This document shows, piece by piece, positions 36,353-64,000 of a stretch of 64,000 nt of DNA; position 1 is the stretch's first letter; each line of letters starts with the position of its first letter. Position numbers and translations under genes: made by a program. The notes beneath the pieces are model-generated. The model searched no databases. It was given only the letters and a program-made list of their open reading frames with translations, and had not been told where the DNA came from. The DNA lies in assembly GCA_949317995.1 (NCBI GenBank), contig OX439044.1:46084166-46148165 (forward strand), given 5' to 3'. This DNA comes from Acholoe squamosa. Its lineage: Eukaryota > Annelida > Polychaeta > Phyllodocida > Polynoidae.

Positions 36353-37355
36353 ATGGCAATAAAACATTCAGATTCATTTATTGGAATGGCACAATCCCAA
36401 GAGTTAGCTCTGCATCCAAGGCCTATGATCTATGCTCCCAATGTGCCAGTCTCTTTTCTTTTAGCAGCTTTTGGTCTTTTCCACTTCCGACATGGTCCGC
36501 TCAAAGGAAGGATAATACCGACGCTGTCGCAGGTCTATGCAGTACTGGTCATGATATTTAACTACGTATTGCTGAATTTAGTGTTATTGTTTGCTCTAAA
36601 TCTGGGCAGGGCATGATAAAGCATGTACACCTTGGTCTTGCTCTCATCAACGCCATAAACCACTGCTTCATGTTCTGTTTCTGCTCTAGGGGAGATCTAT
36701 TTGGTTCTATCTGTGCAATGCTAACTAACATCAAACAATTCTGGTTAGAACGAAGATTTTACATCTTCGCGGGCACTGATGTCTGAGTAATGCTTTTCCT
36801 CTCTGTTTTCCTTATTGTCTATTTCGCAGTGATAAATTCAGTTAATCTAGATTGGAAGTTTGGAATCTTTGAATTTTAGAATTTACGTAAGTCTGTGTTT
36901 ACAGGTAGAGAGGGCGGTACAAACTGTGGCTGGCTTTTGGACAAGGGAAACTGCAACAGCTCAGGATCTGTCAAAGGTAAACATAAAGTAATTTTCTTTG
37001 ATATTCTTCCCATACTTCATTAAGTTTTATTGGTATATACATGTAAGTTAGAATTTTCGGGTCTAATCCAAAAAAAAGAAAAGGGAAAAAGTCGTATGTG
37101 CAAAAGGGATATTCGACTACTGTCTTGGAGTGAGGCTTCTCCCTATCACATAGGTGCATCTGATAGTCATCTCATAAAGTTAGCCACTTTCATACTGTGC
37201 AAGTATCATTCATAAAACCTGACCATGCATGGTGAGCAAAAGTCATATGCCTTATACATGTGTCTTGTAATTTCAGGTTTCTCTGATTATCTCAAATGAT
37301 CATAATGGATGGATGTTGTGGTTTCGAAGTATTGACATTTGGTACCTTTCTTGTG
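36353..37355 (+). pseudogene. Gustatory-receptor-like (GRL) 7TM pseudogene
   Basis: This is a decayed paralogue of the gene at 60372. The frame from the ATG at 36353 aligns with the N-terminus of that gene and shares the near-identical core FGLFHFRHGPL followed by LSQVYA. A TGA stops it at 36614. Homology then continues past the stop: INHCFMF and NIKQF match INYCFMF and DIKQF of the good copy. It breaks again at a TGA near 36785. Much of the middle is deleted. A second-exon remnant (about 36905-36976) retains the AGFWTRETATA block and an AAAG|GTAAAC donor. A third-exon remnant (37277-37355) begins VSLII and keeps NGW, but is 79 nt instead of 90, so it is frameshifted. Splice signals remain visible while the frame is lost. 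Function: none expected. Confidence 0.8.
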
Positions 37356-37912
37356 GTATGTTGGCCTACATGTCATACATTTAATATCGTCACAACCGTT
37401 TGTTAATACACTGAAAACATGGAAGATCCGAAACTAGTCAGCGGTGACCACTTTAGGTCCTCAAGTTGACGATACCTAAACTACAACTTTAGGTAGTCAA
37501 AATGACGTCAGGATGACGACCTAAAGTCGTCATTTTGTTTTCGATTTTTCTTTTCTTTTTTCTTCTAACCTTTAAATGATTTTCTGATTTTGAGATATGT
37601 ATCTCATACTGTATGGCCCAGAGGTTTAGAGCCCCAGTGTTCCTGCCCATATCACCCTCCCGGCTGGGAAGATTTCAAAAACAACTGACGACTGACTGTG
37701 TAGGCCTACTGCTTCTTCGTCCATGTCTCCTTGTCATCCAGTAAAATTTAGGTAGTTATGTAAGCCAACCCTTATGTAAAATGCCATTGATGTCAAGATT
37801 TATGTAAATTTAACTCGTTATAGGTGATCCATCACTTCTATACTCCATCCACCTCAACCTGGGTGGCATTACATAAAGACAAACAACCATCAAACAACCA
37901 CAAATGTGAACA
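37356..37912. other. Palindromic patch and spacer
   Basis: CTTTAGGT...ACCTAAAG and AAAATGACG...CGTCATTTT pair within 37488-37540, giving an imperfect hairpin of MITE-like character. CACTTTAGGTCCTCAA at about 37449 is a further copy of the same word. No gene seen. Confidence 0.45.
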
Positions 37913-38530
37913 GGTGAGGGAAAGGGTCCTCCGAGGTTAAATATGAAATATAAAATTGATGTTATCAGCTTTAAAATGAGATACAAGACTTGTAGATAGC
38001 CCGTCTAGTCGTGGCGATATTGCTTCACGAAAATTGAATAACATGACTTTATCAAAACAGCCAATAAGCTCTATCATTCAGTGTTTTAATTAAATCAGGC
38101 ATCTAATTAGAATAACAATTTAAATAATCAATTAAAAAATAACCATTACTTTCCATAAATCTAGCCATACCTTGGGATCTAGAAATTGTATCTTTATGCT
38201 TTTTTCATCATATGAATCTCCATAAATCATTTTACTAGTTGACATTATTTTTTTTCTATTTGGAATATAATTTTGGTTGCCATGGCAACACATTTCTCTG
38301 AAAACCCTTATTTAGGCCTTGTTTTGTATTCAAAACATTCCATTTACATTCCAAATATACAGGAAGTGCCAGGAAATAGAACGTTTTTAAGAAAACCACC
38401 TTTTTCTGTGTAAAAAAAAAGTACATAAAAGCTATTTTTGGTCTATTTTTCACATTTTTTGTCTTTCTAACTCCCCTAGTGACCAAATCCAGTACTAAAT
38501 ATCCTGCAGGGAGGGCCCTTTCCCCTCATC
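37913..38530. mobile_element. MITE family A, copy 2 (inverted relative to copy 1)
   Basis: TGAGGGAAAGGGTCCTCC at the left and GAGGGCCCTTTCCCCTCAT at the right form the family A inverted ends. The body aligns in reverse with 6668-7278. It contains a perfect X-box palindrome at 38276-38289. Non-coding. Confidence 0.75.
38276..38289. promoter_or_regulatory. Perfect RFX X-box-like palindrome
   Basis: GTTGCCATGGCAAC is identical to 6902-6915 in the paralogous MITE, although the flanks differ. Confidence 0.5.
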
Positions 38531-39978
38531 TGTCCACAAAACCTCTTACAATTTAGTTCAAAATGTGAATTGTCTTTGTGTTTCATCGTTGATTTTTGTC
38601 TTTAAGGCCTCCTTAGAGGATGGAGAAAAATGGTCCAACCTTTTATTAAAACATATAACGACAATCAATGTCATAGCACTATCATGTTGCTTAGGGACTT
38701 ATAACGTCCCCAGGCATCAGGTCCAATGTCCCGGCTTTAACATAGTATATTCAACACCTTCCTGACATGCATACCCTTTGAGTGATGAGTCCATATGTAA
38801 CACCATGTAAAAATCATGCTTTTTTGGCCCTCTCCATCGCTGTTTCCTCATCAACGATAATATCTAACTCAATGAATAACAACATTTTGTATATGTGTGA
38901 AAGGAAGACATTCAATAACTAGACAGGTGCCCCTAGATGGCAGGAAAAAGAGGCATTAGTATCGTGCACAGACCAAGACAAAACATAACTCTGTGGGTAA
39001 TACATACAGGGTGTATGAACGATGTCTCACACAATTACAGTAAGAACCTACCCAATCAGCATTGGAGCATTGGGCCATGATTGTCCATGCTTGGCCCAAT
39101 ATAAGCCGACATGGGCCAAATATAATCCGCCATTGGACCAATGTATCCTTGCTACCGGGGTATGGACAAATTATATATTATAAAGAGACATTGAAAACAT
39201 TACATATCTTCTGATCATCATTAAATGAATATACAGTTGAATAGGCATAAAGGGGATGGTAAAATTCAGCGATATCGAAGCCAATGGGAAGAAACCATAG
39301 AAGAATGTATTAATGCAATAATGGTTGATATTGAAGCCGGGGGGGGGGGCTCTCCCTATGTTGAACATACACATATGTGACAGGTACTGGGGAAAAGGGT
39401 CTTGGGGCCCCCTGCACTAAGCCCCATTTTCGCAGATCATGTCACATATGTGCGGCTGGCAAGGGTACTTTTTCAGCCAAATGTCCCTACCAAGCCTCTG
39501 GTTTCAGACCAGAATGTCCCTAGCAAAGGTCAACTTTCAGCAAAATACCCCGATTCAAGTGGAAAATTCAGAAATTTCCATGAATATTTTCCCAGTTTTC
39601 ATGAAAATAGCACGAACAAAATTCAAATCTTCTCCTAAACAAGGTCAATTTAAGATATTTTGAGCAAAATCTAAGACTGTTATGTCAAAAGTTCCCTAGC
39701 AAGGGTAGGTTTTTGAAGAAAAAACCCGCAATTGAGGGCCCTAGCAAGGGTAAGGTTAGTCGGGGGTTCAGCCACACACCCGTATAAAAAAATTGAAGTG
39801 CCCCCCCCCCCGGGTATTGAAGGCACTAGAGCTGGATAGCCTGGATATTCCAGCACGAGGCTATATAACCCATGTGCCTTCAATATCAACCCTCAATGCA
39901 TTTATACTACGATTTACCCATCAAAAATCAAGAAAAAAATCAAGAAATTCATATTGACTACGAAACGTTCACCACCCA
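38531..39978. other. No gene recognised
   Basis: AT-rich DNA with a G-run at about 39340 and a C-run at about 39800. The phrase GCACTAAGGGCCC...TTCGCAGATC, also present near 30755, recurs at about 39414, so part of this is a dispersed repeat. Confidence 0.4.
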
Positions 39979-40052
39979 GCCCTAGACTCGAAACTGGTAA
40001 GCCTATCATAAAATGGATTCGTGGTCCAACGCTCTATCGACTGCACCAAAGC
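39979..40052 (-). tRNA. tRNA-like sequence (pseudogene or SINE head)
   Basis: On the minus strand, TGCAGTCGATAGAGCGTTGG looks like a D-arm/A-box leading into an anticodon arm. CAGTTTCGAGTCTAGG resembles a T-arm/B-box. The anticodon loop region reads GGACCACGAATCC. The acceptor stem is not convincing, and the enlarged variable part argues for a retroposed or degenerate copy. Another B-box-like GGGTGATCAAATCCC lies nearby at 40214-40228 on the plus strand. Confidence 0.4.
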
Positions 40053-41829: not shown

Positions 41830-43397
41830 CCTATTAAGGCTGGAGCAAGATTGTACTTGCTGTATAGTGACTTAAATTCTGAAATAGACTTGGCTTTTTT
41901 TAGCTCTGGCATCAATACTGTCCCATAGGTGGACACCCCTGTAATATGGACTCCTCTTATATTTTTCAACATTAGGCCTTTTCTGTGGGAATTTATTTTT
42001 TAAGTCACCCCTGGTCCTTTCGGTTTCATTGACCATCAGGCACAGCTTGGTGGCTTGCTTGTACATGAAGATCGCCAGCTGGTTTTTGCATCGGGTTTCT
42101 AACCTGTCTACTGCACATCGGGTGTGAAGGACCTCTGTACTTGTTTTGATACTAAATGTTTTAGTAATGATCCTAAGCCCCCTGTTTTGTAGCCTCTGGA
42201 GTTTTGCAACTTTGTCCATATTTGCACCATCAATCACGAAACTGCAGTAATCAAAATATGGGAGAATAGTATGCCTGTATACAGTACCCGCAACCTGTTC
42301 TGTCACGAGGTAACGCAGCTTACTGAACATGAACAATTTCTACCCTATGACTGATCTAGTGTTTGCCATCTGGGCATTTAGTGATAGGGTAGAGTCTATT
42401 TTGACACCTAAGTATTTGTATTCACTTGGGGAGTCTAGTATGGTTTGTCCGATCGTGATGTTTTGGAGTCCTGCCACACAAGCTTTCTCCCTCCCACCAT
42501 ACCACACAACTTTCGTTTTCTTGGCATTAATGTTCGGGCCACTGGTAGTACACAAGTCTACTATGTTATCAAGATCTATTTGTACATGCTCTTTAACCTG
42601 AGTGGAGTCACAGTCTTTAGCTGTTATAACTATGTCATCTGCATATAGTATGACTCTGCAGTGTTCCACAACTGAGACAACCTGGTTTACATATAGTATA
42701 AACAAAAGGGGTCCAAGAATGGACCCCTGGGGGACTCTAAAGGAAACTTTCTTTTCACTTGACCTTGATCCGTTTAGCAATGTAGTTTGCTTTCTGTGAC
42801 CCAGGTAACTGGCTAACCAGTTTAACAGAGACCCACTAATTCCTAAGTCTTTTAACCTTTTTAACAGGACGGTATGGTGAATGCTATCTAACGCCTTGCT
42901 GAAGTCTATATAGGCAGCACAGGCTAATTTGCCTTCATCTCTGGCCTCGTATAAATAGTTCAATAGGTCATAGACAGCATCGGGTGTGCCTTTATTTCTA
43001 ACAAAGCCATTTTGTTGGGGTGATATCCAGCCTCCTTCTTCTGCTAGCTTTGTAATGTGGGCATGGACTACTCTCTCCATGAGCTTACCTGGTAGAGGTA
43101 GAAGGCTTACAGGTCACCAGTTTGATACCTCATTCAGATTTCCAGTCTTTGGGATTGGGATCACAGTAGCAGTGCCCAGTTTTTGGGAAAGCTACCCTGG
43201 CGGAAACTGTTATTAAACAATGATGTGAGCTGAGGTGCCAATACCTCAAAGGCAACCTTTAGAACTCGGTAGGACATATTGGATATGCCAAGTATATCAA
43301 TAAGTGACCACCTGGAGATGACTGGTGTTACAACTGAATGCAACTGATGATCACCAGTGGTTGTTCCAGGGCTTATATCCCAGCCCTGGAGCAACAC
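41830..43397 (-). pseudogene. CR1/L2-type LINE reverse transcriptase, 5'-truncated and broken
   Basis: The minus strand encodes the second half of a non-LTR retrotransposon ORF2. Order: a pre-RT block (LAPQLTSLFNNSF...FPKNW, 43397-43161), then NW[stop]PVSLLPLPGKL leading into the RT palm. Recognisable motifs are QNGFVRNKGT, YIDFSKALDSI, RVPQGSILGPLLF and the catalytic YADD (VILYADDIVI), ending at a TAG at 42340-42342. The same frame resumes at 42336 with the typical C-terminal domain (LQRLQNRGLRIITK, then PYYRGVHLWDS). An A-run indel shifts the frame near 41890. The endonuclease and 5' part are missing, as usual for truncated LINE insertions. Breaks: at least two stops and two frameshifts, so inactive. 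The CR1/L2 assignment rests on motif order and the C-terminal domain style. Confidence 0.8.
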
Positions 43398-45827: not shown

Positions 45828-45831
45828 ATGT

Positions 45832-46336
45832 ACTAGTAGCCCTCTGTCATATATATAATTCTAATAAATGCACACATAGATTATAATACAAAATAACATT
45901 GTTTGAGTACATGTAAAAATGTTATTTTGACGTTGAAAAAAAAACACGTTTTGTAAACTCAGGAACCAAAAAAAAATACGTCAAAAACGTTTTTCTGCCA
46001 AGACTTGTGACTTTTGACTCCATTGGTTCCTGAGAATTTGAGGCCTATGCATAGCTTATACTAAACTCCTTCATTTGGAAAGCAAAGATGAAGAAACTAG
46101 GATAAAGCACCAATCGACTATGGCTGCTTCATCAGTCCATTCTGAAATAACCTGCATGTCTCTTGCTCATTGTGTTATGAAAATACTGCACTCCCAAGAT
46201 GACATAAAAAGTGAAATTTCTGAGACTAATTGTAAGTGCCTATCATGTATACGGTCGAAATTGGGAGATCATGATGTATTCTGGACTTGTAGTTGCTTGT
46301 AATTTGTATGTTTGAATGAGGAACAAGTCAGAAAGC
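45832..46336. other. Flank with a duplicated 68-bp segment
   Basis: The segment from about 46273 to 46344 (ATTCTGGACTTGTAG...GGAACAAGTCAGAAAGC) is repeated inside the neighbouring LTR element at about 46904-46975. No gene is supported. The frame at 46075-46302 shows no domain. Confidence 0.45.
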
Positions 46337-47395
46337 TTGTAGATTGTTGCAGGACCGGAAGTAGCATCCCGGTGTCACAGTAAATATTTATTGGTTATAA
46401 ATGTTATCCGGTGAAGTTCGCGATCACAACATATCTCCCTTTCTCAAACCAGATATGGAGTAACGTAATACATGTAATATGAACAGTAAATGAAATATAG
46501 TATAGCACAACAATCTTTATTGATATCACTATGAATAATGAACACACAGTGTAAATGTTAATTAAGTCTGATAGTCATTGAGTCTCTGCGGAGTGCGCCT
46601 AACATGTGCTCCCCGTCATGGGTTGTTTTCATTAGAGACTGGCTGTGCCACCCTAGGTACATCATTTTCATTTTGGACTGATTGTGCCTGCTGTGGCATA
46701 ACTGGTACAGGCTGAATGTTGTCATCATTCTCTACCGACATATCCATGTGCTACCAGTCATTTAACTCATACTATTTACTTTTGACTTGTACCTTGCACA
46801 ACCTAGAAGTGTTCCATTTTTTACCATCTTCCAACATTACACAATTACCATGTACTTGTTTCACTTTTAGAGGTTTGGAATATCCCATCCTCGTTGCCAT
46901 TTGATGCATTCTGGACTTGTAGTTTCTTGTAATTTGTATATTTAAATGAGGAACAAGTCAGAAAGCTTGTAGATGCAAAAGGGTCACTTTTTGCAGAATT
47001 GACCTGGCCCTCCGTGGAGACGAATGTTGATGCCGCCGCGCTTCCCTGGGTGCCCGGCCTAATGGGGGTTCGGGGGCAGAGCCCCGATCAAGGATATATG
47101 CCAGAACTATCTGAAACTTATGGAAACTTAAATGGAAGATTATTATTCAGATGAGATCTCATCTGAAAACAGTCAGAAGTGTGTGACAGCATGGTCCCAC
47201 CACATCCCTGAGGAACTAAGGCGGCATGAATGTTTGTCTCCAGTGTGACGTCATTCTAATTTCCGGCCAGGTTAAAATCCCAAGAAGAGACCCACATGCA
47301 TTGTAGATCATTGCAGGACCGGAAGTAGCGTCCTGGTGTCACAGTAAATATTTATTGGTTATAAATGTTATCCGGTGAAGTTCGCGATCACAACA
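46337..47395 (-). mobile_element. Small deleted LTR retroelement, minus strand
   Basis: Short LTR-like direct repeats (46337-46431 and 47301-47395, about 95 bp, about 4 differences) end in TGT...ACA form. On the minus strand each holds AATAAA. Directly upstream of the 3' LTR is a polypurine tract, GAGAAAGGGAGATA (46432-46445 read on minus). The 870-bp interior keeps a pol C-terminal fragment (46772-46888). Most of gag-pol is gone. No convincing primer site or target duplication was found. It lies just upstream of the orphan GRL exon and may be what separated that exon from the rest of its gene. Confidence 0.6.
46772..46888 (-). pseudogene. Gypsy-type pol C-terminal fragment
   Basis: The 38-codon frame reads GYSKPLKVKQVHGN, then VMLEDGKKWNTSRLCKV. 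This matches the general pattern of the region after integrase in Ty3/gypsy pol (a small beta-rich block ending in D-G-x-x-W-x-x-S-R-L). The upstream pol is absent. A diverged continuation with stops runs to about 46600. Confidence 0.5.
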
Positions 47396-47439
47396 GATCA
47401 CTTGTTGAAATACCATGGAATGACCCTCTGATATTTCAG

Positions 47440-47529
47440 CCTTCTGTCATTGTGTCACAGTTATATAATGGATGGATTAGGATAACACTCTGTGGTCTGC
47501 AAGTATTGACAGTTAGGGTATTTATACAG
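47440..47529 (+). pseudogene. Orphan GRL C-terminal exon
   Basis: It is exactly 90 nt, phase 0 on both sides. The acceptor is TGATATTTCAG before 47440 and the donor ACAG|GTATGT after 47529. It encodes PSVIVSQLYNGW, IRITLCGLQVL and VFIQ. This aligns position for position with exon 3 of the GRL gene at 61916-62005 (ISLIVTQITKGW, MTLCGVEAL, GFIA). No stop or indel, but no exon 1 or 2 was found upstream; the preceding kilobase is LTR element. It is either the remains of a third GRL gene or an exon whose partners are too diverged for me to see. Confidence 0.7.
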
Positions 47530-48067
47530 GTATGTGCATAAAATCCTACCTTGTGTCACCAGACAGGTAATAAATCGTCCTAGTATAAACAAGGATTTCA
47601 TCCACATTTACACTGAATTTCCCATCTGGAAATACCCTTTTTATATTTTATAGTATAATTATTTGATATATTGCTGATTGAGACTGGTTTCCCAATATAC
47701 ATGTTAAGTTACTTTTTGAGAAAATGTGACCAGATGCATCAAGGGAGGATATTGCTTTTTAAAGTCATGTGCTTTAAAATGAGATATCTTGAGCTGAAAT
47801 ATTCTTGGTAGTTCTTCTGTAATTGCTTGCCAAACCTAGGTCGGTGTGAGCAATTGAAAAATGCAAATAAGCTCTAAATACATTATATCCTAGCTTAAAT
47901 AGTGATAATGCAAAAAATACAGTTTTGGGGGAAAATAAACAAAGAAATGTGATTTTTTTATCATAAAATCAGCTCTAGAGGGAATTTTCTTGGTCTGTTT
48001 TTTGTTCTCAGTTCCTTATGACAATATCAAACACATTTGTGGCAAAAATTCCAATTATCTATGTTTC

Positions 48068-48610
48068 TGTAACGGGCAAGCTTACGCACTACCCTACTGT
48101 TCTATAATAATAACATATGTTTACTTCGATAATGTCTTATCGACCGGTGATGTAAATACGGGTACTTATCAGTACCGACCGGTACCATATGTTTAACAAC
48201 CATTTAGGCGTTAAGCCTGTTATGTAAGAGGATTAATATCTGCCGCATGGTTCTCACCTATGCTAATTGTAATCTATATGTTAATAATGTCATGTGTTAA
48301 TGAACCTACTATATAAAGGACCTCATGTTCCTACCTCTGGGAGTGTGTCTTAGGCGCTAAGACCTCTCGTACCTCCATACTATTTCCAATATCTGTTAAA
48401 ATCTACTGTCTATACCTAGGCAGATAGAGCCATACGATATTACCCTATAGAATCTGTACACATTTTTTGACTATTGAACCAAGCAATCCATGTTCAACAA
48501 AGTAATAAAGCTTCGGAAACTCTAAGTTCCTTGTGTTGTTGTCTCTAAGTATTGGAGTCGCATAGACAGATAACCTGACAGGCTTACCGACGGGTGGCCT
48601 GATGGTTACA
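48068..48610 (+). repeat. 5' LTR of the gypsy element
   Basis: 543 bp, beginning TGTAACGGGCAAG and ending GGTTACA. The terminal TGTAAC/GTTACA form a perfect 6-bp inverted repeat. It contains a TATA box (TATATAAA, 48310-48317) and a poly(A) signal (AATAAA, 48504-48509), giving a plausible U3-R-U5 order. Confidence 0.9.
48310..48317 (+). promoter_or_regulatory. TATA box of the 5' LTR
   Basis: TATATAAA lies 187 bp upstream of the AATAAA in the same LTR. It would drive the genomic RNA. The equivalent segment is deleted from the 3' LTR. Confidence 0.6.
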
Positions 48611-48611
48611 C

Positions 48612-48623
48612 TGGTGCCGTGAC
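48612..48623 (+). promoter_or_regulatory. Primer-binding site complementary to tRNA-His
   Basis: TGGTGCCGTGAC starts one base after the 5' LTR. It is the complement of the 3' end of animal tRNA-His (GTCACGGCA plus CCA) over 12 nt. The match stops there. Confidence 0.7.
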
Positions 48624-48911
48624 CACCAAAACTTGCCTGACAACACAGGAGTCGTACTCTTAGAAATAACCAAGCTTTATGTATCAATATGGACTATGTC
48701 CGAGGTCTTTATCGATCTTTCACATCTATCAGACAGTGGGATTCTTCATTTGATGAGAGACAATCTGCTATAAAAGCAGTATGATCTTTCACAAATAAAC
48801 AAGAAACCCCAGAAACCGATCCACTGGTAACGGTACCTAGACAGATATCATCTCAGACGGAGGAAATAATTCCTTCCTGTAATCAGTCAGGGACCGCAGT
48901 TACCGACGGAC

Positions 48912-50703
48912 AGATGACAGGCTTTTAACCATGCGGAAGGTAACACTCCACACTCCCTCGATGACCTTAGTGCCGCTGTATTTGAAATACAGGGTACTAC
49001 ATCGATTCCCAATGTGAGGAGAAGGCAAGTGGAACGTTCAACCCTAAATCAAGTACCTATCGATGATAGTAGTACTTTAACCACGGTAACACCTGTAGCA
49101 GAAACTCTCAGTCATATGGAGATTAACCGCTTTTTGGACATCAAGCCAAAACCTACGGGACCCGGCTTGTTTGGTAAAACACCTACCGAAGCTCCTTCTG
49201 GTTTACCTTTAGACGAGTCGGTAGTTAGTCAAATGCTGGACAAGGATCTCCTGGTCAAACTGAAACAATTAAAGAAAGCAAGGGCTAAGGTTGTAGAGTT
49301 GGAGAAGAAAAAGAACTCTCTGAACTCAGATTATCTGGAGAAATCTAAGAGATTATCTGAAATATCGACCGATATAGCTGCCAAATCTTTTGAATTAAAA
49401 GAAATGCAGCATAAAGGTGCAACTACACAAGTCCAGCTGAATGAGCTTTTACAAACAAATGAGCAGGTGGCTGCCCAAGTAAAAAAAGCTCAGACAGACT
49501 TACCTGAACTTATGAGTGCCACATCGGCAGTAAATTTGCAACGCCAAATCTTGCTGGGCCAGATTACCAATAAACCCAATACAAATGCCGACTCTAATTG
49601 TTCTATGAGAACTGGAAGGGTTGGAATGCATGCATCAGTCAGTAACCAATCGGGTTCGAACAAAGGAAATGAAGATTTCCGGCGAACCATGAATAACACC
49701 GTCCCGAAGTATAACAATACTTTTGTGTGGACCTCGGCTACACAACAGAGTACCACAGCCCCAAAGATACGAACGGGGTTAACTCCTGGGGAACAGGAAA
49801 AGATTGCTCAGAACCCGGCTATTTTAGCGACTGGGTTAGATGTAGTACCGAGGGCCACGGAATGTCTGATCGAACAGTGTAAAATGGTACACTTCCATAC
49901 TACCTGAGATCCTGACACTGCAAAGTCAAAGGCTCTAAAAGTCAAGCCTTTTACCGGCAATCCACCTTGGCGAAAATGGCTGTCCCATTGGCATAACGTT
50001 AACTTATCCAATGGAGCCAATGATCGCCAAGCGCTAATGTCACTGAAGGAGGCATTAGAAGAGGGGCCCGGCAAAGTGGTCATCTGAGCTTTCGAAAAGA
50101 ATGGTGACGTTACCCTGCGTGGGTTAATTGAAACCGCCACCCACCTTCTCGTTAAAGTAGGTGAGGAAGACCCAAAGGCCCTCTTGTACAAACGGACTCA
50201 GAAACCCAAAGAGGGGACCAGAGTCTTCGGGTTTGCGATCCAAGAACTTGTTTCTGAACTAAATGCAGGGTGCCGACCAGATGCGCCCGTAGTATTTCAG
50301 GAAGCTACCACCCAATTTATAAACATCTATAGATATCTATGAGACTAAGAAAGCTGTGTTTCCCACACTAGGGGCAGTGGCCGCTGTAGCATCGACCGAC
50401 AACCCACAAGAAGGTGTCGGTATCGCTGCTGTCAGTGCCCATAAGAAGGGGAAAGATGCTAAACAGCCTCAGAAATTGCTCAATGTTAGTTCAAATGCCG
50501 AAATAGAAACTTTAGTAAAAGAACTAGTAGCGAAACAGGTGAAAAGATCTAACACTGGTAAGAATTCTCGAAAGGAATGGAAAAAGAAACAGACCTGTAA
50601 TCGGTGCCAGGTCTTGGGGCATATCACACCTGAGTGTCGAGCCCCAGCTCCGGTTCCTAAAGAGGATTCCTCAATCGACCAGGGGACAGCTCAGGAAAAC
50701 TAG
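48912..50703 (+). pseudogene. gag: gag, degraded (coiled-coil N-terminus, CCHC zinc knuckle)
   Basis: The open frame from about 48912 to 49904 has no ATG at its start. It encodes a Lys/Glu/Leu-rich coiled-coil region (roughly codons 110-200 of the frame) before a TGA at 49905. The frame continues after it, with a second TGA at 50085 and a TGA and TAA near 50340, where it shifts by one base. The last part (to the TAG at 50701) is basic and ends with the zinc knuckle CNRCQVLGHITPEC, a correct CX2CX4HX4C. Gag would package the RNA; the knuckle binds nucleic acid. Several stops and a frameshift make it non-functional. Confidence 0.75.
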
Positions 50704-50725
50704 GTCGGGGTGATGCTAATGGCAC

Positions 50726-53700
50726 ATGATCGGTGGCGAGACAATAGTCGTTGCTAACCCGGTCGGCAGTGTTTCAACAGGGCCTGATCCACCTCCAGGG
50801 AACACTATCGACGGGACCAAGCTAATTAGAGCTGTTAATGAGGAGTCCTGGGCCCACACTATTTCACGGATAGGTGGTGTCGACATCTCCCCTGACGATC
50901 CATGTTTTCAGTATTTGAAAACAATAGGGGTAGCTCAGAGCAGCGGGGGTATTGAAACAATATCGACCGGGAAGTGCACCCCATTAAGGGGTAAACGTTG
51001 GTATGTATGTTTGTCCGTCCTCGGACAGAGAGGTGAGTTTCTTCTTGACACAGGTGCGTCACACTCACTGGTTGGGAAGAGATTCATGTCCCTGTTAGGT
51101 CGACAGTCTGAAATCCCTCAAGAAGGGATAAGGGCTCGGACGGCCAACGGAGACAATTTACAAATGTATGGCAAGACTGTTTTGCCGATATTGGTTAATG
51201 GTAGGACGTACCTGATCTGTCCTACCGTTGCCGATATCACGGATGACGGCATCCTCGGTATGGACTTTGCTGCACTCTATGGGGTGACAGTAAACTCCAG
51301 TACTGGGAAAGTAAGGATTCGATCACCTTTTGATCATGCTATCCAGTGTGAGCTCCAGGTTGAATCCGGTACTGCCTCTGTAGTGCAAACCACCAAACTC
51401 AGCCCAGATCAGATATCTGATGTCTTGATCAGCTACATAGGTGTACAGGGGAACAGACAATCGGTATTTGAGCCTGAACAGTCCACTCTAGCATCTCTTG
51501 GGCTGGAAGGCTTCGATACGATAATTGTTAACCCTCGATGGACTGTGATACCGATAAGCAATCCCTCTACTGAAACTGTAGTTTTACGGAAAGGAATGCC
51601 GATCGGTACCTCGGCCTGAATTGTGAGTCACGAGTCATCACATGACAATGAAATGCATGTCTCCGCGATGGGAGTGCCCCCATCTTCGAGCCTACTGATG
51701 CATTTAGTACCGTTAGTCATGGACTCTGACTTAGGAGAAGAATACCATCAAGAGGTTATTAATAAGCTGTCCCCCTATAAGACTGCTTTTGCTGCCCCTG
51801 GTGAACCTCTTGGCCTAACCGACACGGTTCAACACCAGGTGGACACTGGCAATGTCCGACCTATTATGCTGCCTTACCAACGTCTCCCCATAGCTAAGAA
51901 ATCTGCTATGGAGGACGAAGTAAATAAAATGCTGGCAGAAGGTATCATCTCTCCCAGTGATAGCCCCTGGTCTAGCCCTGTCGTTATGGTGACCAAAAAG
52001 GACGGGACACGTCGGTTCTGTATCGATTACAGAAAACTGAATGGAGTCACTAGGAATAATGCATATCCCTTACCTCGAATCGACGAATGCCTAGAGTCTC
52101 TCGGCGGAGCCAAATGGTTTTGCACTCTCGACCTGCAATCTTGGTATTGGCAGATTGGAATGGACCCTAAAGATAGAGAGAAAACAGCATTTGCGACTCA
52201 TATGGTGCTGTCCGAGTTCAATGTCATGCCATTTGGTTTGTGTAATGCCCCAGCGACGTTCGATTTGACGATGGAATCCATACTTAGGGATTATCTGTGG
52301 AAAAAATGCCTAGTGTACTTGGATGACGTCATCGTCTATGGAAACACATATGGACAGTGTCTCGATAATCTCTGTGCTGTGCTAGATCGACTACAAGCCA
52401 ATGGTTTAAAGCTGAAGCCTAAAAAATGGAAATTATTTAGAAATTCAGTAGAATACCTAGGTCGGATAGTATCTGGACAGGGCATTGCTGCCGATCCAAC
52501 CAAAGTCCAAGTAGTGGAAAATTGGCCCCTACCGACCGATAGCAAGGAGATTCAATCCTTCATCGGGTTCTGCTCCTATTACCAGGACTTTATCCCTAAT
52601 TTTTCGAGAGTATCGGCTCCTCTACAGAAGTTGATAATTCCCGAAAAGAAGGGGAGACTAAAGGTTGTGTTGAACCAGGAAGCCATCAGTGCATTTGAGG
52701 AACTGAAATGTCTCATCAGAGAAACCCCAGTTACCCTAGAGCGGACGGCAAGTTCATCTTGGATACTGATGCCTCCAATGGAAGCATTGGAGCTGCGTTG
52801 TCCCAAATCCAAGATGGGAAGGAGGTATCATTAGCCTTTGCCTCCAACAGCTTGAACAAGGCTCAACGCAACTATTGTACTACAAAAAGAGAACTCCTTG
52901 CTGTGGTGGTCTATATGAAAAAGTACTGGCATTTTCTCTATTGTGGAGATTTCGTTCTGCGTACCGACCATTCCACACTCAAATGACTCCTTAATTTTAA
53001 GGATGCCGAAGGAATGATAGGGAGATGGCTGAACCACCTCTCTGAGTTTGGCGTGACCAATGCTCACATCGAACAAAGGAGTGGTGCTAAGCATATCAAT
53101 GCCGACTGTTTGTCACGCATCCCCATGCAGAAATGTCATCGGATAGACTGTACAGATTATGGAAGTTACAATGCAACAATTGCTTTGGTAGCTCTGCCGA
53201 TTCCCAACTGGACTCTCCAGGATTTGGGAAGGAAACAGTTGGAAGACCCTATCGTTTCCAAAGTCAGGCTTTGGATCGAGAATGGTGAACCTAAACCAAC
53301 TAGGCCGGCATTGTCTATAGAACACAAAGAAACCCGAGCTATGATAGCTCAATGGGATGACTTGTGTGTGTCAATGGAGGACCCAACCGGGTAGAAGAAA
53401 GAATTTACAGGCAGTAGTTCCCTATGAACTCCGCCTGGAAATAATGGACTTCTGCCACGGGCATAGGACCTTGGCACATTTTGGAAGGGAAAGAACGGAA
53501 CAAAAGATCAAATCCCGCTACTATTGGCCAGGTATGACGGAACACATCCATCGATGGGTTAAACAATGTGATAAATGTTGTCTAGCCAAACCAGGGCCTG
53601 GCCTAGGGAAGCTTCCATTAAGCCAAGAGATCTTTGGTGTCTGTTTCCCCCGTATAGCTGTGGATATCATCAGTGGATTCCACACTACCCCGGCAGGTAA

Positions 53701-54778
53701 CACATGTATGATGGTATTGCAGGACTATTATACAAAGTACATCCAAATATATCCCCTACCAAACCAAACTGCTGTCACCTGTGCAACAGCGCTCTTCGAG
53801 AATTGGATTCTCACATGGGGAGCTCCATTGATGTTGCATTCCAACCAAGGCCGAGAGTTTGAGTCTCGCCTTTGGGCTGAGATGTGTGAGAAGGCGTACA
53901 TCTGTAAGATGTATACGAATCCCTACCGACCGCAAAGTGATGGTCTGGTAGAATGATTCAATCGGACTCTTATAAGCTGCCTCATCACTATGGTAAATGA
54001 ACATAGAGACAACTGGGGCAATCAGTCTCGCTATGTGGCACATGACCGGGTGCACCCCTAACCTATTGGTAATGGGAGAGAGATCCCCATGCCTTCTGAC
54101 ATGGTGTATGGAGTCCCAGGGTTAGCCAGGGAGCAGCCCTGTACTGTGACTTTTGTTGAGGCACTTAGACAAACGTTGCGGGATGCTTTCCCATTAGTAC
54201 GAAGTGATTTGGAACATTCTGCCAAATTACAGAAAGTGGCCTACGATACTGAACTTAAGACCTGACAGTTTGCACCAGGGGACTTAGTAGTTCAGTATAG
54301 CACTCCACAAGCCAATGAGAAGGTCAACTATGACTGGGTTGGGCCTCTGGAAGTTTTAGCAGTGATCAATGAAACCACTGTTCTTCTAAAGTCTGCCCGT
54401 GGTAGGAGATACAACTCTCATGTGGCCCGCTTGCGACCCTGGAATGGGGTACTGGCCGATGAGTTTGACCTACAGACCGGTAATAAGGAATCAAAGATTC
54501 CTAAAACCACACAAACCGCTACATCACAGCAGGTCAAGGCGCCGACTGCCACTACCAAACATCAAAGGAAGAAAAGTAAGAAGGCTAGAATTAACAAAGC
54601 CCCGGCTGTTGTATCAATCACACCCACGGCTCGTGACCGAGGTGATAGGTTGAAGCCCAGATTAGCCTGTATCAAGCAGGCTGAGCTAGAGAAATCTAGG
54701 TCACCTGCCTCGGATATGGCTAGGCTGTTATGGCGAAGTCGACGCAAGGCTAGTGGTGATGAATCAGTTCTTGTTTAA
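50726..54778 (+). pseudogene. pol: pol, degraded (protease, reverse transcriptase, RNase H, integrase)
   Basis: Protease: LLDTGASHSLV with DTGA at codons 108-111 from 50726, and ILGMDF 68 residues later. A TGA at 51617 separates it from RT in the same frame. RT (51623 to about 52735) has FCIDYRKLNG, CTLDLQS, VMPFGLCNAPATF and catalytic YLDDV. LDLQSWYWQ has Trp where Gly is usual. A one-base shift near 52735 leads to RNase H (52708-53394) with ILDTDAS, TKRELLAV and LRTDHSTLK, then a TGA at 52984. A second shift near 53390 restores the first frame for integrase. Integrase has an HHCC finger (HGHRTLAHF...CDKC), DDE first Asp in AVDII, LHSNQG with Asn instead of the second catalytic Asp (53843-53845), and the Glu in GLVE followed by TGA (53954). 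More stops follow at 54059 and 54263. A basic tail ends at 54778. Confidence 0.85.
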
Positions 54779-55150
54779 GGCTGTACACCACAGTGCCCTG
54801 ATTGTCTTGTTTCTTTGTTGTAGACTACCCTCCTCTCCCCCGTACACCCGCAATGGGATCCTATGGTCCTATGGAATGAAATTACACAACGACAAGTACA
54901 ACCTCATTGTAACTACAAAATCTTATGTCCAGTCAGGGAGTGATGTATATTGAAACCAGGGTGGGATGGACAGGCGTTGCCTGCATTCATCATATTATGA
55001 GAATGTTGGATCCACATATCACTGTGTGTTTTATTATATATCAGATCCAATAGATGTTGACAGTACCATGGCCAAATGAAACACTTTGCGCACTATCAAG
55101 GAGTCGATGATCCTAGGCGTCAACAATATCTCCTTATTTGGTCAAGTCTT
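54779..55150 (+). other. Gypsy element spacer between pol and the third ORF
   Basis: About 370 bp with no ORF of note. It precedes the promoter-like cluster. Confidence 0.5.
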
Positions 55151-55240
55151 TTTGGCGCCAAACGCGGGTGGCATTAGATTGCGACACGCTGATTGGCTAT
55201 TCACACCGTCCGATTCCACCAGATAGCCTCCTATAAATAG
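55151..55240 (+). promoter_or_regulatory. Internal promoter: E2F-like site, inverted CCAAT box, TATA box
   Basis: TTTGGCGCCAAA (55151-55162) is a perfect palindromic E2F consensus. ATTGG (55192-55196) is an inverted CCAAT box. TATAAATAG (55232-55240) is a canonical TATA box. Spacing (about 30 bp CCAAT to E2F, 36 bp CCAAT to TATA, 83 bp TATA to ATG) suits a cell-cycle-type promoter starting at about 55265, ahead of the ATG at 55323. That such a promoter works here is inference. Confidence 0.6.
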
Positions 55241-55322
55241 AGGCGCTGACAAGATCAGAGTTCAGAATTGTTTTACGATTCTACAGTCAACATCTCCTAG
55301 CAGATTTGACTGGCATTCTGAT

Positions 55323-57732
55323 ATGAACAGCATGGCTACAGCAGATAACTTGACGCCGGCAGAGGAGAAGAGGTTGCTGGCATCGGATGGTAAGAAGGGT
55401 ACCGGTCGGCTTCCTACCGACCATGGTACCACACCTCAGACCAGCCCGACACCGCCACCTTCCCCACCACTGCTGGGGCAGGAGGTACCGAAGCTGGTAG
55501 CTCTCAAAGAGGAGGCCATGGAGGTCGAATCTACCGAGACTACCAACACAGAGTCCAAAAAGAGGCCTAAGAAAAAAAAAAGAAACGTTCTTCTGAATCT
55601 GAAGCCCCTAAAGGAGGCCGGTACCAACCCGGCCATAGAACCTGCGGAAGAAGAAGAGGTAGTAACTACTTGTTACGGCCCTTCGGAATCTCGCAAAGAC
55701 AGACGGCGCCAGGCTAATAAAGCACAGGAGGCCGATGCTGTCAGGACAGAGACCCGGCCGAATGTGACGCTAGAAAGTCTGCAAGACAAAAATGGTCGTC
55801 ACTGGGTGCCTAAACTGTTTGACCCCAATACCGGTCTGTCGGACGAGGAGGACTGGATGAGCGACACAGACCATCCGTTAGATTGGTATGTGGATGAACT
55901 CACCTTGCTTCTCCAACTACCTGATGCTGGGTCATGGGTTTCAAATGAAGCTCAACTACTCTTGGAGGTACTACGCTCTGGGCGACCCCTGCCCCTTTCA
56001 AAGGTGCCAGGAGCGCTCGGGTGCTAGACCTGCAATAAGATGTATCAGCATGGCTCGCTTTGCTCGGTATCTATGTGAGAACCACCTCCCAACCCACCTT
56101 CCCATCTATTGTGTACCAGCAGACGAAGGTAGGACGGCCTGCCGGCTGTGGGATGATAGTGAATACCACCGAAATGCTCGTCGAGGGATAGTGGTACGCC
56201 ATCTGATGAAGAACGGCTACCACCAACACCCTCTGACCAGAGCACTCGGTATGGTGACTATTTGTTGGGAGGCTAAGGTCGGAGAAATCTGTACCGGCCG
56301 CCTCCAGAAACGCCAAGTAGCCAACTGCCTGATTAATCGGTTGAAACTTATGGATCATGAGTAGGATCGCTGTAACGGCAAGACTAAGGGCTGTGGACCC
56401 CAACAGGAGATGGGTGAGTCCAGGTCCGATGTCTTACCAAGGGAGCAAGTCAATGAAGCCACCTGTGTCGGTTCTAAACGCTCCCGACAGCCCACCAGGG
56501 ACGAGTCATCGGGCCCACCCCCGAAGACTAAGACCCCTGCCAAGAAGCCAGAACCCAAGTCGAAGCCGAAGCCTTCTGGTTCACGAGCGACTAAGAAGTC
56601 AGGTGGCACCACCGCTACTGGCTCTCTCTCTCGAGGGCAAGATGCGGGAGTGCAACAAAGTGACTTCTATCGTGCAAGATGTGTGGGGCACTGACACAGC
56701 TAGTGTCATCCGCCAGACCTACCTGGAGAGCCAAAAGCAATCCATGAAGGTCTTGGATGACATTAAGGTGAAACCCTCACAGACCCGGCCGATAGCCTCC
56801 ACCTCGAGCACTGTCAGTAGCATGAGTGCTCTAAGCTTGGAGGTCAGTGGCCAGGTCACTGGCATGTCCACCCAGTCACCTCATGGTATAAACTGGAGCG
56901 GCTCTGCGGCTTCGGTAACACCTGGACTGGAGGGACTATTTCATCAGGACTCCCTTTCTCGACGGAGCTCCTCTAACTCCGACGGTGCGTCGGTTCCCAC
57001 TGAAGTGGCCAGGCCCCTGTTGTCTGGACCCTACCAGAAGAGAACAGTGAGTTCTCGGAGCGAATGAGCGCCCCAGTGCGGGAGCTTTGAGACTCGCTGA
57101 CAGAGCAGTTCAGCCAAACTCTAGCCTCTTAGGTATACGTAGCGGCTTTCGAGCAGTCGTTGCTGAAGACCTCTTCTATATTGTCCGAGGAGGACGAAAA
57201 GAAGAGGACTAGAGAGAAGGCAAGGGGCCAGGCAGAGCTGGACAGCTACAAGGAGCAGGTTTCCCTAGACGCTGCCTTCGATAAGGCACGTCACGAGGAG
57301 ATAACTCTGAAATGGAATCAGGCCTCATCACATTTCCACCGAATGTCTGGAATGTCTTTAGAGGCCTGGGAGAGGAAAGGCTACCCGACGCTTGCGCCGA
57401 TGAGTAGCCACATCCTAGGGCCCAGCATGACATTGGACCCGAGGATGACAGCCCCTCCAGGCTGGCAGGCCATGGGCTCCCAGACCCACATTTTTCACAT
57501 GATGGGTATGAGGGATGCCAGTGGCCTGACAGGTCAGGGAGTGCCACCATCTGGCTTCCCTATGGTACCACTGGCCGGGTTGCTCACACTCCGCCCTTCA
57601 GGAGTTGATGATCAACCGGCCGGAGAGTAGAAGCCTCCTACGGAGGATGTCTCCCCGGCACCGCAGCAGCAGATGGACACTGAAGCCCCTGTAGAAGAGG
57701 ACAAGCCGCGTGGAGATGGTGACACTGCCTAG
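55323..57732 (+). pseudogene. Third ORF of the gypsy element, unknown protein, frameshifted
   Basis: It starts at the ATG at 55323. The first part (to about 56000) is acidic/basic and Pro-rich, with a KKRPKKKKR stretch that could be a nuclear-localisation signal. After a shift, a Cys/His-containing segment follows (ARFARYLCENHL, then RHLMKNGYHQHPLTRALG, about 56050-56360). Then comes a Lys/Pro-rich linker (56410-56640), a shift, an S/T-rich part (to 57064), and a charged helical plus Met-rich C-terminus (57160-57630, open to 57732 after one stop). Read together this would be about 780 codons. There is no transmembrane segment or signal peptide, so it is not an ordinary env. I recognise no family. 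Frameshifts occur near 56000, 56390 and 56640. Position between pol and 3' LTR plus its own promoter suggests an accessory or captured gene. Confidence 0.55.
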
Positions 57733-58365
57733 TCTAGGTAGCTGCTCTCAATCTCTATCTGATGCAGACCTGGCTATTACCATGGACTAACCCGATCGAT
57801 AACGGAACCTGATGACCCCGGTAGCCGTGCCGCGTTACTGACAGAAGGATGATTTTGCCTTATCTACAAAGGACGATCTCTTATAAACTGTTATTACTAA
57901 CCTGTGGAAGAAGGATACCTGCCATATGTTGCTGTCAGTGAAGCTGGACTTTTACTATGGAGCCTCTAACTATATAATATCCTACCCCTATTGGACGTCT
58001 ACAGACTAATTGTTTTATGAAACAAATGAAAGAAAACAAGTTGGAGTTTCCCATACCTATTCTTTATTGGACTAAAATTGTACGTCTGTGTTCTACATTT
58101 CGGCTGCTATACCGGGCTGAATACATAGTAGGTCCTCCTTAGTTCCGTTTTTTTGTATGAACCAGACCCAAGGAGTTGGAATCTAATCGCTACCTGGAAA
58201 GACTGTTGTAACATTGACTTATGCCAGTTATACTATGTTGTTCATTATCACATAACATGTTTCAAGTCTTTATTCAGTCAATCTCTTACGAGTGGTCTAT
58301 TGAACTGTATAAACAATACTACCAATGTTGTTTTTTTTTTTAAAAAAAAACCTGTTCTCATTCTT
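57733..58365 (+). other. 3' untranslated part of the gypsy element
   Basis: AT-rich, with a T10A9-type run at 58331-58350. It leads to the polypurine tract. No gene. Confidence 0.6.
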
Positions 58366-58376
58366 GAGGGGGGTAG
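58366..58376 (+). promoter_or_regulatory. Polypurine tract
   Basis: GAGGGGGGTAG lies immediately before the TGTAAC start of the 3' LTR. It is where plus-strand DNA synthesis would begin. Confidence 0.75.
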
Positions 58377-58457
58377 TGTAACGGGCAAGCTTACGCGCTA
58401 CCCTACTGTTCTATGATAATAACATATGTTTACTTCGATAATGTCTTATTGGTTACA
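58377..58457 (+). repeat. 3' LTR with 462-bp internal deletion
   Basis: 73 bp match the start of the 5' LTR (two mismatches), joined directly to the last 8 bp (TGGTTACA). Everything between (5' LTR equivalent 48141-48602), including TATA and AATAAA, is missing. The outer end is intact because the TTTC duplication follows immediately. Confidence 0.85.
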
Positions 58458-58670
58458 TTTCCATGGCAACGGATGTCTCTTTTGCATCCCATAAATGGTT
58501 TCAGTAGAAATGGAATAATTCTGAGCATACGACTGAATTCCCCATAAAAAATTGATCTAAGCCATTTTTCATATATTTTTCAATGTTTTACTCATACATT
58601 TTTCATATATTTTTCAATGTTTTACTCATACACTGCCCCCTGGTGGCCAAATGCACGTTTTCTCCAGATG

Positions 58671-59255
58671 GGTCACAAAAGTTTATCAAAATCAGAGGGA
58701 ATCAGAGACCCGGTTAATCTAAATTGAAGATACAATTTCAATACAAGGGTAGCTTTAAAAGTGTTGGATAGTGTTCCCTTCTTTATACAATCACAGAATC
58801 CTGTAGTAATTCTTACACACTTATTCTCATTTTCAGAAACTTTCCATGTTAAGTGTAACATTTCTATTTGGTTGCACATACTCTATAATACAAGGCCGGA
58901 TAATAGCCCATCCGCAGCATGATTCCTATGTAAGATAGAGTTAACATTATGCCTAATTGAGACATGCAAAAGAAAACATTAAAATGTTGCTAACCTTCAT
59001 TGAAGAGCAGCTAGGGCAAAGACCTTTCAATAAAATAATCGAGGAGATATTCTGTCATAGATCGTCTTTCAGAGTTCTCGTTCAGAACGTCATTTTAGAA
59101 TAATGACTGAAACACATTTATCACTTGTGAACAATATCCGGGGGACCCTTGGTGCATTGAAGCCCAGGAGTAAAGTATTTAGGCCTATTTCACCTGTCAC
59201 ATATCTATAACCTATGGGCTGCTACAGCCAAAGAACCACTTACCAAATGACCACG
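58671..59255. other. No feature recognised
   Basis: Anonymous AT-rich DNA between the MITE and the next element. Confidence 0.5.
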
Positions 59256-59600
59256 GCAGGGGCGTAGGAAAAGGGGGGGGGGGCTGACCCCCCCCCCCAA
59301 TCATGAAGGAGGTGGAGCCTGAGTATGTCTGGGCCCCCCAAATATTTGCCAAGAATTCATGATAAATTTGACAAGAAGGTAACACTTTGCATCTCAATTT
59401 AGATTGATATAGCAATGGGATAGGGAAATGGGGGTGTGGGCTTAAAATTAGATTTAAAATTCATTAAAAAAAATCACTTTTCTATACAAATTTTATATAG
59501 GTATGTATAGGTGCTATTGCACTTGAGCCGACGATCCAAGGTGTTCACAGCGGGGCCCCCGCTGGGCCCCCCAATAAAAATTTGCTTCCTATGCCTCTGC
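59256..59600. mobile_element. hAT-like MITE with G/C runs
   Basis: GCAGGGGCGTAGGAA at the left and TTCCTATGCCTCTGC at the right form imperfect 15-bp inverted ends. Next to each end are long G or C runs that can pair (about 59272-59300 and 59550-59572). 345 bp, non-coding. Target duplication is not clear. Confidence 0.5.
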
Positions 59601-60371
59601 ACGGGCATTATGAAGAAATGAATAACGATCCCAAATTTCAGAAGCACACAAACCAAACAGTTAATGATTTTAGTTCGATTCCTATATTCTATGATTACCA
59701 ACTCTGGTGCTTAAAGCGATGCAGGTACGAGAAACAAAATCGAGATGTGTGGGTGTGTTTGCTGTACTTCTTCCGATGCAATCATTTTGTTCAAACCTTT
59801 GAAGGATAGGCCTATGGGGAGTTGTGATAGCCGAAGTCACTCCCTCTGCTAATGTGTGTTTTATCTACCAGTAGCAATCTCTCTAATGTAGCTATGTGTA
59901 AATTGCCACATTCAGTGATGGACGCTGTTGTAACATTGGTCACTGTGGTGAGATCATCTCTGGGAAGCAGCCAATAAATTATTGATACGTCTCCTCGTTG
60001 GAGCAGACATCGACTGCGGTAAATTGTGTACAGGGATAAGGTGTACAAATTGATTGAATGCAAAATCCATGAGAGAACAGTGTGGGATTTTGGACCATTA
60101 GAGAACAGCGGAAAAGCATCATGTAAGGCTAACAATACCAGAGTTGTAAATGGAATTTTCATCTAGACTAATGGTGGGATGGTAATAAATATTGATGAAT
60201 AATGAATGACATCAAATAGAGGTTGGCTGCTGGGTATAGTGACAGCACTCACATTTGCATTCAGTTCCTAGCGAACCGATTGAAGCAGAGTTGGTTGAAA
60301 ACTTTGCCTCCTCAGATCTCAGTTAGGATAACTGCAGTGACAAAAACTAGAAACAATCCATTGTCTTCAAA
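59601..60371 (+). other. Upstream region of the GRL gene
   Basis: A 116-codon minus-strand frame (59812-60162) starts with a hydrophobic stretch but shows no family. No clear TATA box is seen near the GRL start. The segment at 60200-60371 is presumably its 5' leader. Confidence 0.4.
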
Positions 60372-62005
60372 ATGGCAGTGAAAATCGAAGGGAGTCCACA
60401 GAAGGTTGTCATTAGGATGGGACCACCGCAAGAAGCAACTACACATCTTAGACCACAGACTTACACTCCTATTGTGCCGGTCTGTGCTCTTCTAGCATCT
60501 TTCGGCCTTTTTCACTTTCGACATGGCCCTTTGAGGACGAGGATCGTCTCAAAACTGTCCCAGGTGTATGCCGCAGTTTTAATAGTACTGAATCTGGCTC
60601 TACTGATTGGCGCTTCTGTGTGTGTTGGCCATGGAGGGAGTGTGCAGGCAAAGCCCCTTGAAATCGGATACTGCTTCCTGACTTTGATAAATCTAATCAA
60701 CTATTGTTTCATGTTCTACATTTGCTGGAGAGAAATTAGATTCGCAGCTGTCCTTAATGCTCTGGTTGACATCAAACAGTTCCTTCAGGAGCAAGGGTGT
60801 TCAATTCTCACAATACCTTTTATTTGTCTGATGCTCCTTCTTGCTGCCTTTCACATTGCAACTATTACTTACTTTGTTGTCAGTTTTGATGGAAGGTCAA
60901 TTTCCACATTTTTGCTGGACAATGTAGGACTCTACCAATGTACATCAGATACCACCATAAGGAGAATGCTCCTTGGGGTGCAGCCTTTTCTGTGGGTGAG
61001 CAGCTCTTTGCTACCATGCTGGTTTTATCTTACCTTAACCTCCTGCACCTGGATGAGCATAAGGAATGTAAGGAGATATCTTAAGTATAGTAACATATCC
61101 TACAGTATGACCATTCTGACCAACACAGTTCATCAGGTCTCTCAACTTGTTGGAGCCATGGACAGCTGCTTTAAATGGTATTTGCTTCTAATGATAGGAA
61201 TGTTCGCAGCATTGGCATTTGTCTCTATTGTTGTCTTAGGAGAATTCCTGTGGGCTCTTTGGCTTCTCTGCCCTGTGATCATCGGATTATTTGCTGCCTT
61301 TCTAGTTAATTATGAGGTAGGTAAAACTCTTGTCAATAGTTTGAACAACTTGTACCAGTTCTCTTTGATCAAAAGGTAAATACTTAATAAATAATATCTA
61401 ATAAGTATCTGAGTAATATCTAATTGAATTGTTCAAAACAGTGTGGTAAATGATTTCATTCGGACCTCGTATGCTATCTCTCAGGCACTAGAACTTGCTG
61501 AGACAGTTTGTGGATTCTGGACTTGTGAAACAGCAACAGTTGAAGATCTGATGAAGGTGGGTAGAACATCTAATAATACACCTTATAAGATATCATCCAG
61601 TTTCACGTGTTTTTTTTTTAATTTGATCTTCACGAATAACAACATACGCCTATGATGTCTCAAGGCCATGTCTAGATCGAATGATTTTGATGCAAAGGCC
61701 CTGCTAGGTTGAAAAAAATGTATAATGGTGCGTTAATCCCTAATATGAATGAAAAGCAAACGGTCAGAATGCTTTGTCTGAGAATTATTTCATGATTATC
61801 CTTACAGTACATGCAGGTGTATTTCCGAAGCTGGCTCGGCATTGAACTATCATGCACAATTTGAAATATTTTATCGTGGACAAACATTGATATTATGTAT
61901 ATATTATTTTTCTAGATTTCACTTATCGTCACACAAATTACCAAAGGATGGGTCGGGATGACGCTCTGTGGCGTCGAAGCATTGTCATTATCTGGCTTTA
62001 TCGCA
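60372..62005 (+). CDS. Gustatory-receptor-like (GRL) seven-transmembrane protein, 3' end not found
   Basis: Three exons: 60372-61375, 61442-61556, 61916-62005, joining to 403 codons. Splice sites: AAAG|GTAAAT with AAAACAG, AAG|GTGGGT with TTTTCTAG, and GCA|GTAAGT for the next intron. Intron phases are 2, 0, 0. Exon 1 codes an N-terminus of about 60 residues and six hydrophobic helices at roughly 64-86, 96-118, 145-171, 203-226, 267-290 and 293-313. Exon 2 holds CGFWTCETATVEDLMK. Exon 3 starts the seventh helix (MTLCGVEAL...GFIA). Length, N-terminus inside, a long loop before TM7 and phase-0 C-terminal introns fit the insect-Gr/animal GRL superfamily. Those proteins act as ligand-gated cation channels or, outside arthropods, have mostly unknown roles. 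The short last exon is not recognised before 64000. Two paralogous remnants upstream support the exon structure. Confidence 0.7.
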
Positions 62006-63974: not shown

Positions 63975-64000
63975 GGCAAGCATAAATCATACATTCATGG

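Follow-up and report, generated by a model that had tools for sequence, protein, structure and literature searches.

The Or and Gr proteins of insects are established as tetrameric cation channels that are opened by ligands and whose pore is lined by the seventh transmembrane segment (TM7). Gustatory-receptor-like channels (GRLs) were reported, in the available sections of PMC7746228, from a limited set of deuterostomes comprising echinoderms and hemichordates and not chordates. The same sections describe proteins of approximately 350–500 amino acids with seven transmembrane (TM) segments, an N-terminus on the inner side, and inner loops that exceed the outer ones in length; an extra N-terminal hydrophobic segment was predicted in several of them, including SpurGRL1. 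Phase-0 introns toward the 3' end are given as a feature of Gr and GRL genes in the excerpts of PMC9998090 and PMC2680840, and according to the excerpt of PMC2680840 nearly every Daphnia Gr gene has its last intron six codons before the motif TYhhhhhQF (the Daphnia rule). In this study, a 64,000-nucleotide stretch of contig OX439044.1 from Acholoe squamosa (the window) was analyzed, in which three plus-strand sites represent a tandem family, small, old, and in decay, of probable seven-helix membrane proteins, most likely GRLs.

The closest described systems were compared with this locus. Echinoderm and hemichordate GRLs, such as SpurGRL1 and those of Saccoglossus (available sections of PMC7746228), compared by published description only, share with the protein predicted here a length of about 350–500 residues, the extra N-terminal segment (SpurGRL1), and introns near the 3' end; the seven helices and the N-terminus inside that are described for them may be shared as well. 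They differ in the TM7 motif, which was not seen here. The insect Gr proteins (8uvt; Gr43a, 8jm9; Pfam 7tm_7) are alike in topology and in closely spaced 3' phase-0 introns and, if the Daphnia rule holds, in a third intron equally far from a conserved glycine; in contrast, similarity was detectable neither with a hidden Markov model (HMM) nor by profile-profile comparison. The Gr clusters of arthropods such as Daphnia pulex, as far as the excerpt of PMC2680840 describes them, also contain tandem copies and fragmentary pseudogenes, one of them beside its intact gene, whereas here three copies were seen, with synonymous divergence (dS) above 1.4 and mobile elements between them. Chemoreceptor families with pseudogenes are already well known, with Daphnia as an example in that excerpt.

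The three related sites lie between 36.35 and 62.0 kb and were recovered by tblastn searches with pieces of the best-preserved gene (copy 3) against all six frames of the whole window. Exon 1 of copy 3 matched exon 1 of a pseudogene (copy 1) in two stretches (E 1e-24), exon 2 matched exon 2 of the pseudogene (E 3e-6), and exon 3 matched an orphan exon 3 (copy 2; E 7e-7). The background matches that followed the family sites had E-values of 0.31 for exon 1, 1.2 for exon 2, and 0.34 for exon 3. No further copy was found in 1–36 kb on either strand by tblastn with the copy 3 exons. Exon 2 was 72 nucleotides (nt) long in both copies that retain it, exon 3 measured 90, 90, and 79 nt, and the borders were AG/GT. 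Amino acid identity between copies reached 41/75, 20/46, 13/24, and 13/30 codons in four blocks, and the observed identity was attained by 0 of 20,000 codon shuffles in each block. Therefore, the E-values and shuffle tests place the similarity beyond chance, and the equal exon lengths and phases give independent support. Judged from their sequences, the three sites are copies of one gene family by common descent.

The substitution pattern was calculated for the same blocks. In the 75 codons of exon 1, dS was 1.62 and the non-synonymous divergence (dN) 0.356 (dN/dS approximately 0.22); in the 46-codon block, synonymous change was saturated and dN was 0.466. The 24 codons of exon 2 gave a dS of 2.52 and a dN of 0.414 (dN/dS approximately 0.16), and the 30 codons of the orphan exon 3 gave 1.41 and 0.444 (approximately 0.31). 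Since synonymous change greatly exceeds non-synonymous change, the copies are to be read as old and as having evolved mostly under constraint, and the death of copy 1 as late in that history. These values are averages over both branches and do not in themselves prove present-day constraint on copy 3.

A reading made from the sequence alone, hereafter the sequence-only reading, had described the region as a tandem GRL-like cluster caught in the act of decay. The tandem family and its decay were borne out by homology in each exon, by the lengths and splice borders of the exons, by the disabling changes, and by the substitution pattern. The decay is real, and how to phrase it is a matter of taste; the pseudogene, with about two fifths of its exon 1 lost, is plainly dead. 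That reading had also assigned the motif FGLFHFRHGPL and an exon 2 block to the members in common. FGLFHFRHGPL was identical in the pseudogene and in copy 3, and the block reads GFWTRETAT and GFWTCETAT, respectively; thus the claim holds for two members and not for the orphan, which consists of exon 3 only. An exon 3 of exactly 90 nt in two members was found as described, in copy 3 and in the orphan.

Copy 1 was correctly recognized as a pseudogene with stops and deletions, and it proved to have retained its own exon 3 as well. Approximately three fifths of exon 1 is kept, and the part that would match residues ~190 to 315 of copy 3 is gone. By itself the match of its exon 3 was weak, with E 1.3 in tblastn and, against the orphan exon, E 0.007 in blastn; the exon was accepted because of both splice borders and its position after exon 2. 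On this evidence copy 1 (36353–37355) is plainly dead, and its product can be at most a short N-terminal fragment.

Of copy 2, exon 3 remains and perhaps an exon 4. The orphan exon had been called intact, and its 90 nt, open frame, and good splice borders agree with this. Exon 1 or 2 was not found by tblastn in the 10,084 bp from the pseudogene to the orphan exon; these exons may have been deleted or never copied. Two FWTC matches at 46279 and 46909 were considered as relics of the orphan exon 2 and rejected, as they belong to a small element, within whose terminal direct repeats they lie. The orphan exon alone can do nothing.

Copy 3 had been described as a well-preserved gene encoding 403 residues. 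It is well preserved in exons 1–3, while its last exon was not found, and the supported length is 369 residues, up to the end of exon 3. All 369 codons are open, the exons have GT..AG borders (a donor only for the third exon), and the predicted intron borders follow codons 315, 339, and 369, all in phase 0, the third without a confirmed acceptor. Copy 3 (60372–62005 and beyond) is probably alive; it is presumably expressed and would possess a last exon with the TM7 motif.

The predicted protein was then set against the published GRL anatomy. Its 369 residues, to which the last exon would be added, fall within the GRL length range. Nine hydrophobic segments scored above 0.9 (residues 31–49, 67–85, 101–119, 145–163, 164–182, 200–218, 271–289, 294–312, and 351–369), with weak scores for 164–182 (1.01) and 200–218 (TM4; 1.27) and a score of 1.43 for 351–369 (TM7, partial). 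Seven of them were chosen as TM1–TM7, with 31–49 set apart, 164–182 omitted, and TM7 lying partly in the missing exon. When 31–49 was taken as a re-entrant stretch, 18 lysine or arginine residues (K/R) lay inside and 4 outside. The inner loops amounted to 115 and the outer loops to 55 residues, in the direction described for GRLs, a value that depends on the chosen segments and above all on TM4. Applied to 8uvt (which we take to be BmGr9) and 8jm9 (Gr43a), the Daphnia rule would, in our own short alignment, put a predicted intron at a distance of 11 residues from a conserved glycine that precedes it. Likewise, 11 residues separate the glycine of TLCG from the donor in both copy 3 and the orphan exon. 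Therefore, gene structure and topology, with approximately seven helices, an N-terminal hydrophobic stretch, longer inner loops, and phase-0 3' introns, make GRL membership of the family likely. By analogy, the family would be GRLs working as ligand-gated channels.

Several results weigh against this assignment. In Pfam, the 369-residue protein matched only DUF4191 (E 0.89), and the insect Gr model 7tm_7 was not listed up to E 10, a search in which the filters drop most weak matches. The sole match among PDB sequences was unrelated (E 0.9), and two protein searches, in which 8000 and 236 candidates were scored, returned no homologs at E <= 10. An HMM built from three insect Gr proteins gave -0.3 bits, and of 400 pattern-keeping shuffles 64 did as well; profile-profile comparison with insect Gr by hhalign gave a probability of 0.08%, with shuffles as good in 122/150 local and 80/150 global alignments. 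In a fixed register, exon 3 scored on the Gr block above its own shuffles (p 0.035 for copy 3 and 0.015 for the orphan). Among the 94 open AG..GT 90-mers of the window, however, one unrelated stretch scored above the orphan and two above copy 3, and at least 5 of the 340 windows of the copy 3 protein outscored exon 3 on this block, the best at residue 230. A membrane-spanning 31–49 would put the N-terminus outside and lessen the charge contrast; four K/R each are present in residues 1–30 and 50–66. The same ambiguity, caused by the extra hydrophobic stretch, is described for SpurGRL1 in the available sections of PMC7746228. The TM7 motif TYhhhhhQF would lie in the missing exon of copy 3, the 3' end of which is unproved, and no convincing last exon was found in 62006–64000 by motif scans and by a scan of hydrophobic phase-0 candidates in 62040–64000. 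Because no relatives of the protein were found, the two structure models, which covered exon 1, had mean pLDDT values of 51.2 and 49.9, too low for a comparison with the Orco and Gr folds, and thus PDB structure comparisons were uninformative.

The test by profile match to the Gr/Or fold, which the sequence-only reading itself had named as able to refute it, was therefore negative with Pfam, the HMM, and profile-profile comparison. The GRL assignment is plausible, since topology and intron phases fit the published anatomy as far as they can be read with an ambiguous N-terminus and an incomplete TM7.

The same negative results leave room for a tandem multi-helix family outside the GRLs, that is, a lineage-specific membrane protein or channel whose Gr-like topology and phase-0 introns arose by chance. 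We regard this as rather unlikely. It would account for the missing sequence or profile link to Gr proteins, the lack of relatives, and the exon 3 fixed-register match being equalled by unrelated stretches. Furthermore, animal introns are most often in phase 0, so that a run of three such introns is not rare. On the other hand, the GRL description fits wherever it could be examined, namely in length, segments, N-terminal stretch, loops, and short phase-0 3' exons. A family of G-protein-coupled receptors (GPCRs) with the N-terminus outside is very improbable. It would share the approximately seven helices, and tandem families of chemoreceptor GPCRs are common among marine invertebrates; however, no Pfam GPCR model was listed for the copy 3 protein up to E 10, and with seven segments the K/R counts of 18 versus 4 place the N-terminus inside. 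A membrane-spanning 31–49 would make this ambiguous, but with eight segments. Finally, that the similarity of the three sites reflects chance or a repeat can practically be set aside. In its favor, the region is full of mobile elements and the two FWTC matches are element sequence; equal exon lengths, phases, and borders and a synonymous change several-fold above the non-synonymous already contradict it.

The last exon was further sought among phase-0 candidates downstream of the units, which were compared between the three. The highest scores were 46, 39, and 34 against 35–46 for shuffles, where the exon 2 pair scores 71 and the exon 3 pair 77. A scan for acceptors and hydrophobicity in the sequence downstream of the orphan exon yielded candidates at 48012 and 58837. 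Over the two strands of the window there were 3,089 candidates, of which 12, counting these two, had scores about as good or higher. The candidate at 48012 was dropped because it runs into a retroelement. The stretch 58837–58938 may be a last exon of the orphan copy, a weak candidate chosen post hoc for which chance is possible.

Another arrangement of the 3' end would have the three copies serve as variable 5' units that splice to one constant last exon beyond 64 kb, as some insect Gr loci splice variable 5' units to a shared constant exon. In line with this, no unit has a convincing local last exon, and the exon 3 donors of copy 3 and the orphan are both in phase 0, which would allow each of them to splice to a shared last exon. 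On the other hand, local last exons would also be missing if such short exons had been lost or had diverged, and 58837–58938 offers a weak local candidate. We consider a shared last exon improbable.

Table 1. Features of the tandem family and of the mobile elements around it (positions in the window).
Feature	Position	Strand	Description
Copy 1 exon 1	36353..36886	+	ATG and 87 open codons, then stop, frame changes, more stops; 3' end approximate
Copy 1, possible intron 1 relic	36887..36904	+	18 nt, GTAAGT...TTTACAG; putative deletion remnant
Copy 1 exon 2	36905..36976	+	72 nt, VERAVQTVAGFWTRETATAQDLSK, open, AG/GTAAAC
Copy 1 exon 3	37277..37355	+	79 nt (90 minus 11), out of frame; TTTCAG before, GTATGT after
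Small element	46272..47395	+	160-bp terminal direct repeats TG...CA, 152/160 identical; 5-bp duplication GATCA
Orphan exon 3 (copy 2)	47440..47529	+	exactly 90 nt, open, PSVIVSQLYNGWIRITLCGLQVLTVRVFIQ; AG before, GTATGT after
Gypsy-type LTR retroelement	48068..58457	+	10,390 bp, between orphan exon and copy 3; 4-bp target duplication TTTC
LTRs of the Gypsy-type element	48068..48610 (5'); 58377..58457 (3')	+	5' LTR 543 bp; 3' LTR reduced to 81 bp
Possible last exon of copy 2 (weak candidate)	58837..58938	+	33 codons and TAG, strong acceptor, hydrophobic, T-F at codons 8-9
Copy 3 exon 1	60372..61316	+	945 nt, 315 codons, ATG to phase-0 donor; hydrophobic segment 31-49, TM1-TM6
Copy 3 exon 2	61485..61556	+	72 nt, ALELAETVCGFWTCETATVEDLMK, phase 0/0
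Copy 3 exon 3	61916..62005	+	90 nt, ISLIVTQITKGWVGMTLCGVEALSLSGFIA, phase 0/0, donor GTAAGT
Element of ~880 bp	63097..63974	.	33-nt inverted ends (94%) including TA on both sides; downstream of copy 3 exon 3

The window has a G+C content of 35–47% in 4-kb steps and is rich in mobile elements (Table 1). The large retroelement, bounded by long terminal repeats (LTRs), contains matches to protease, reverse transcriptase, and integrase, an order that we take to be Gypsy-type. The first 73 bases of its two LTRs agree at 71 positions, and this agreement, together with TTTC on both sides, points to a rather young insertion. Approximately 2.4 kb of further open frames follow the integrase (55227–57630); two of the four frames were scanned, without a Pfam match. 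When the element (10,390 bp) and one of the two 4-bp repeats are subtracted, the orphan exon lies 2,448 bp from the ATG of copy 3, which replaces the earlier estimate of about 4 kb.

The small element ends 44 bp upstream of the orphan exon. Its 3' repeat is split by a 326-bp insert (46975–47300) with an 8-bp duplication, TTGTAGAT, and its 5' repeat represents the uninterrupted state. The element of ~880 bp contains several copies of a GTGTTTAG-like motif. A repeated module occurs in two copies at 62244–62380 and 62700–62878, with a perfect 30-nt hairpin at 62671–62731. On the minus strand, 42340–43113 encodes part of a reverse transcriptase (RVT_1, E 6e-31) that seems to derive from a non-LTR element, with 1203 protein matches, the best 120 of which show at most 52% identity. 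A minus-strand open frame of 249 codons at 24125–24874 has cysteine-rich stretches and no Pfam match. The heptamer AGGCCTA, usual in sea urchins, occurs 10 times in the window against 2.8 expected; no weight is given to this count.

The history of the locus reads as an old duplication, followed by long constraint and then by decay of copies. Mobile elements have inserted between the copies, the Gypsy-type element parting the orphan exon from copy 3. If the family is a GRL family, the product of copy 3 would by analogy be a tetrameric cation channel of inverted seven-helix topology that opens on ligand binding and whose pore is lined by TM7. No account of decaying GRL clusters in echinoderms or hemichordates was found in the literature searched, with subscription journals mostly outside its scope. 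Decay of this kind is an ordinary history for such families, and the interest of the locus would be modest unless a shared last exon proves unusual. If the GRL reading is true, it adds a tandem GRL family with a readable history of loss, together with a sharp prediction on the last exon.

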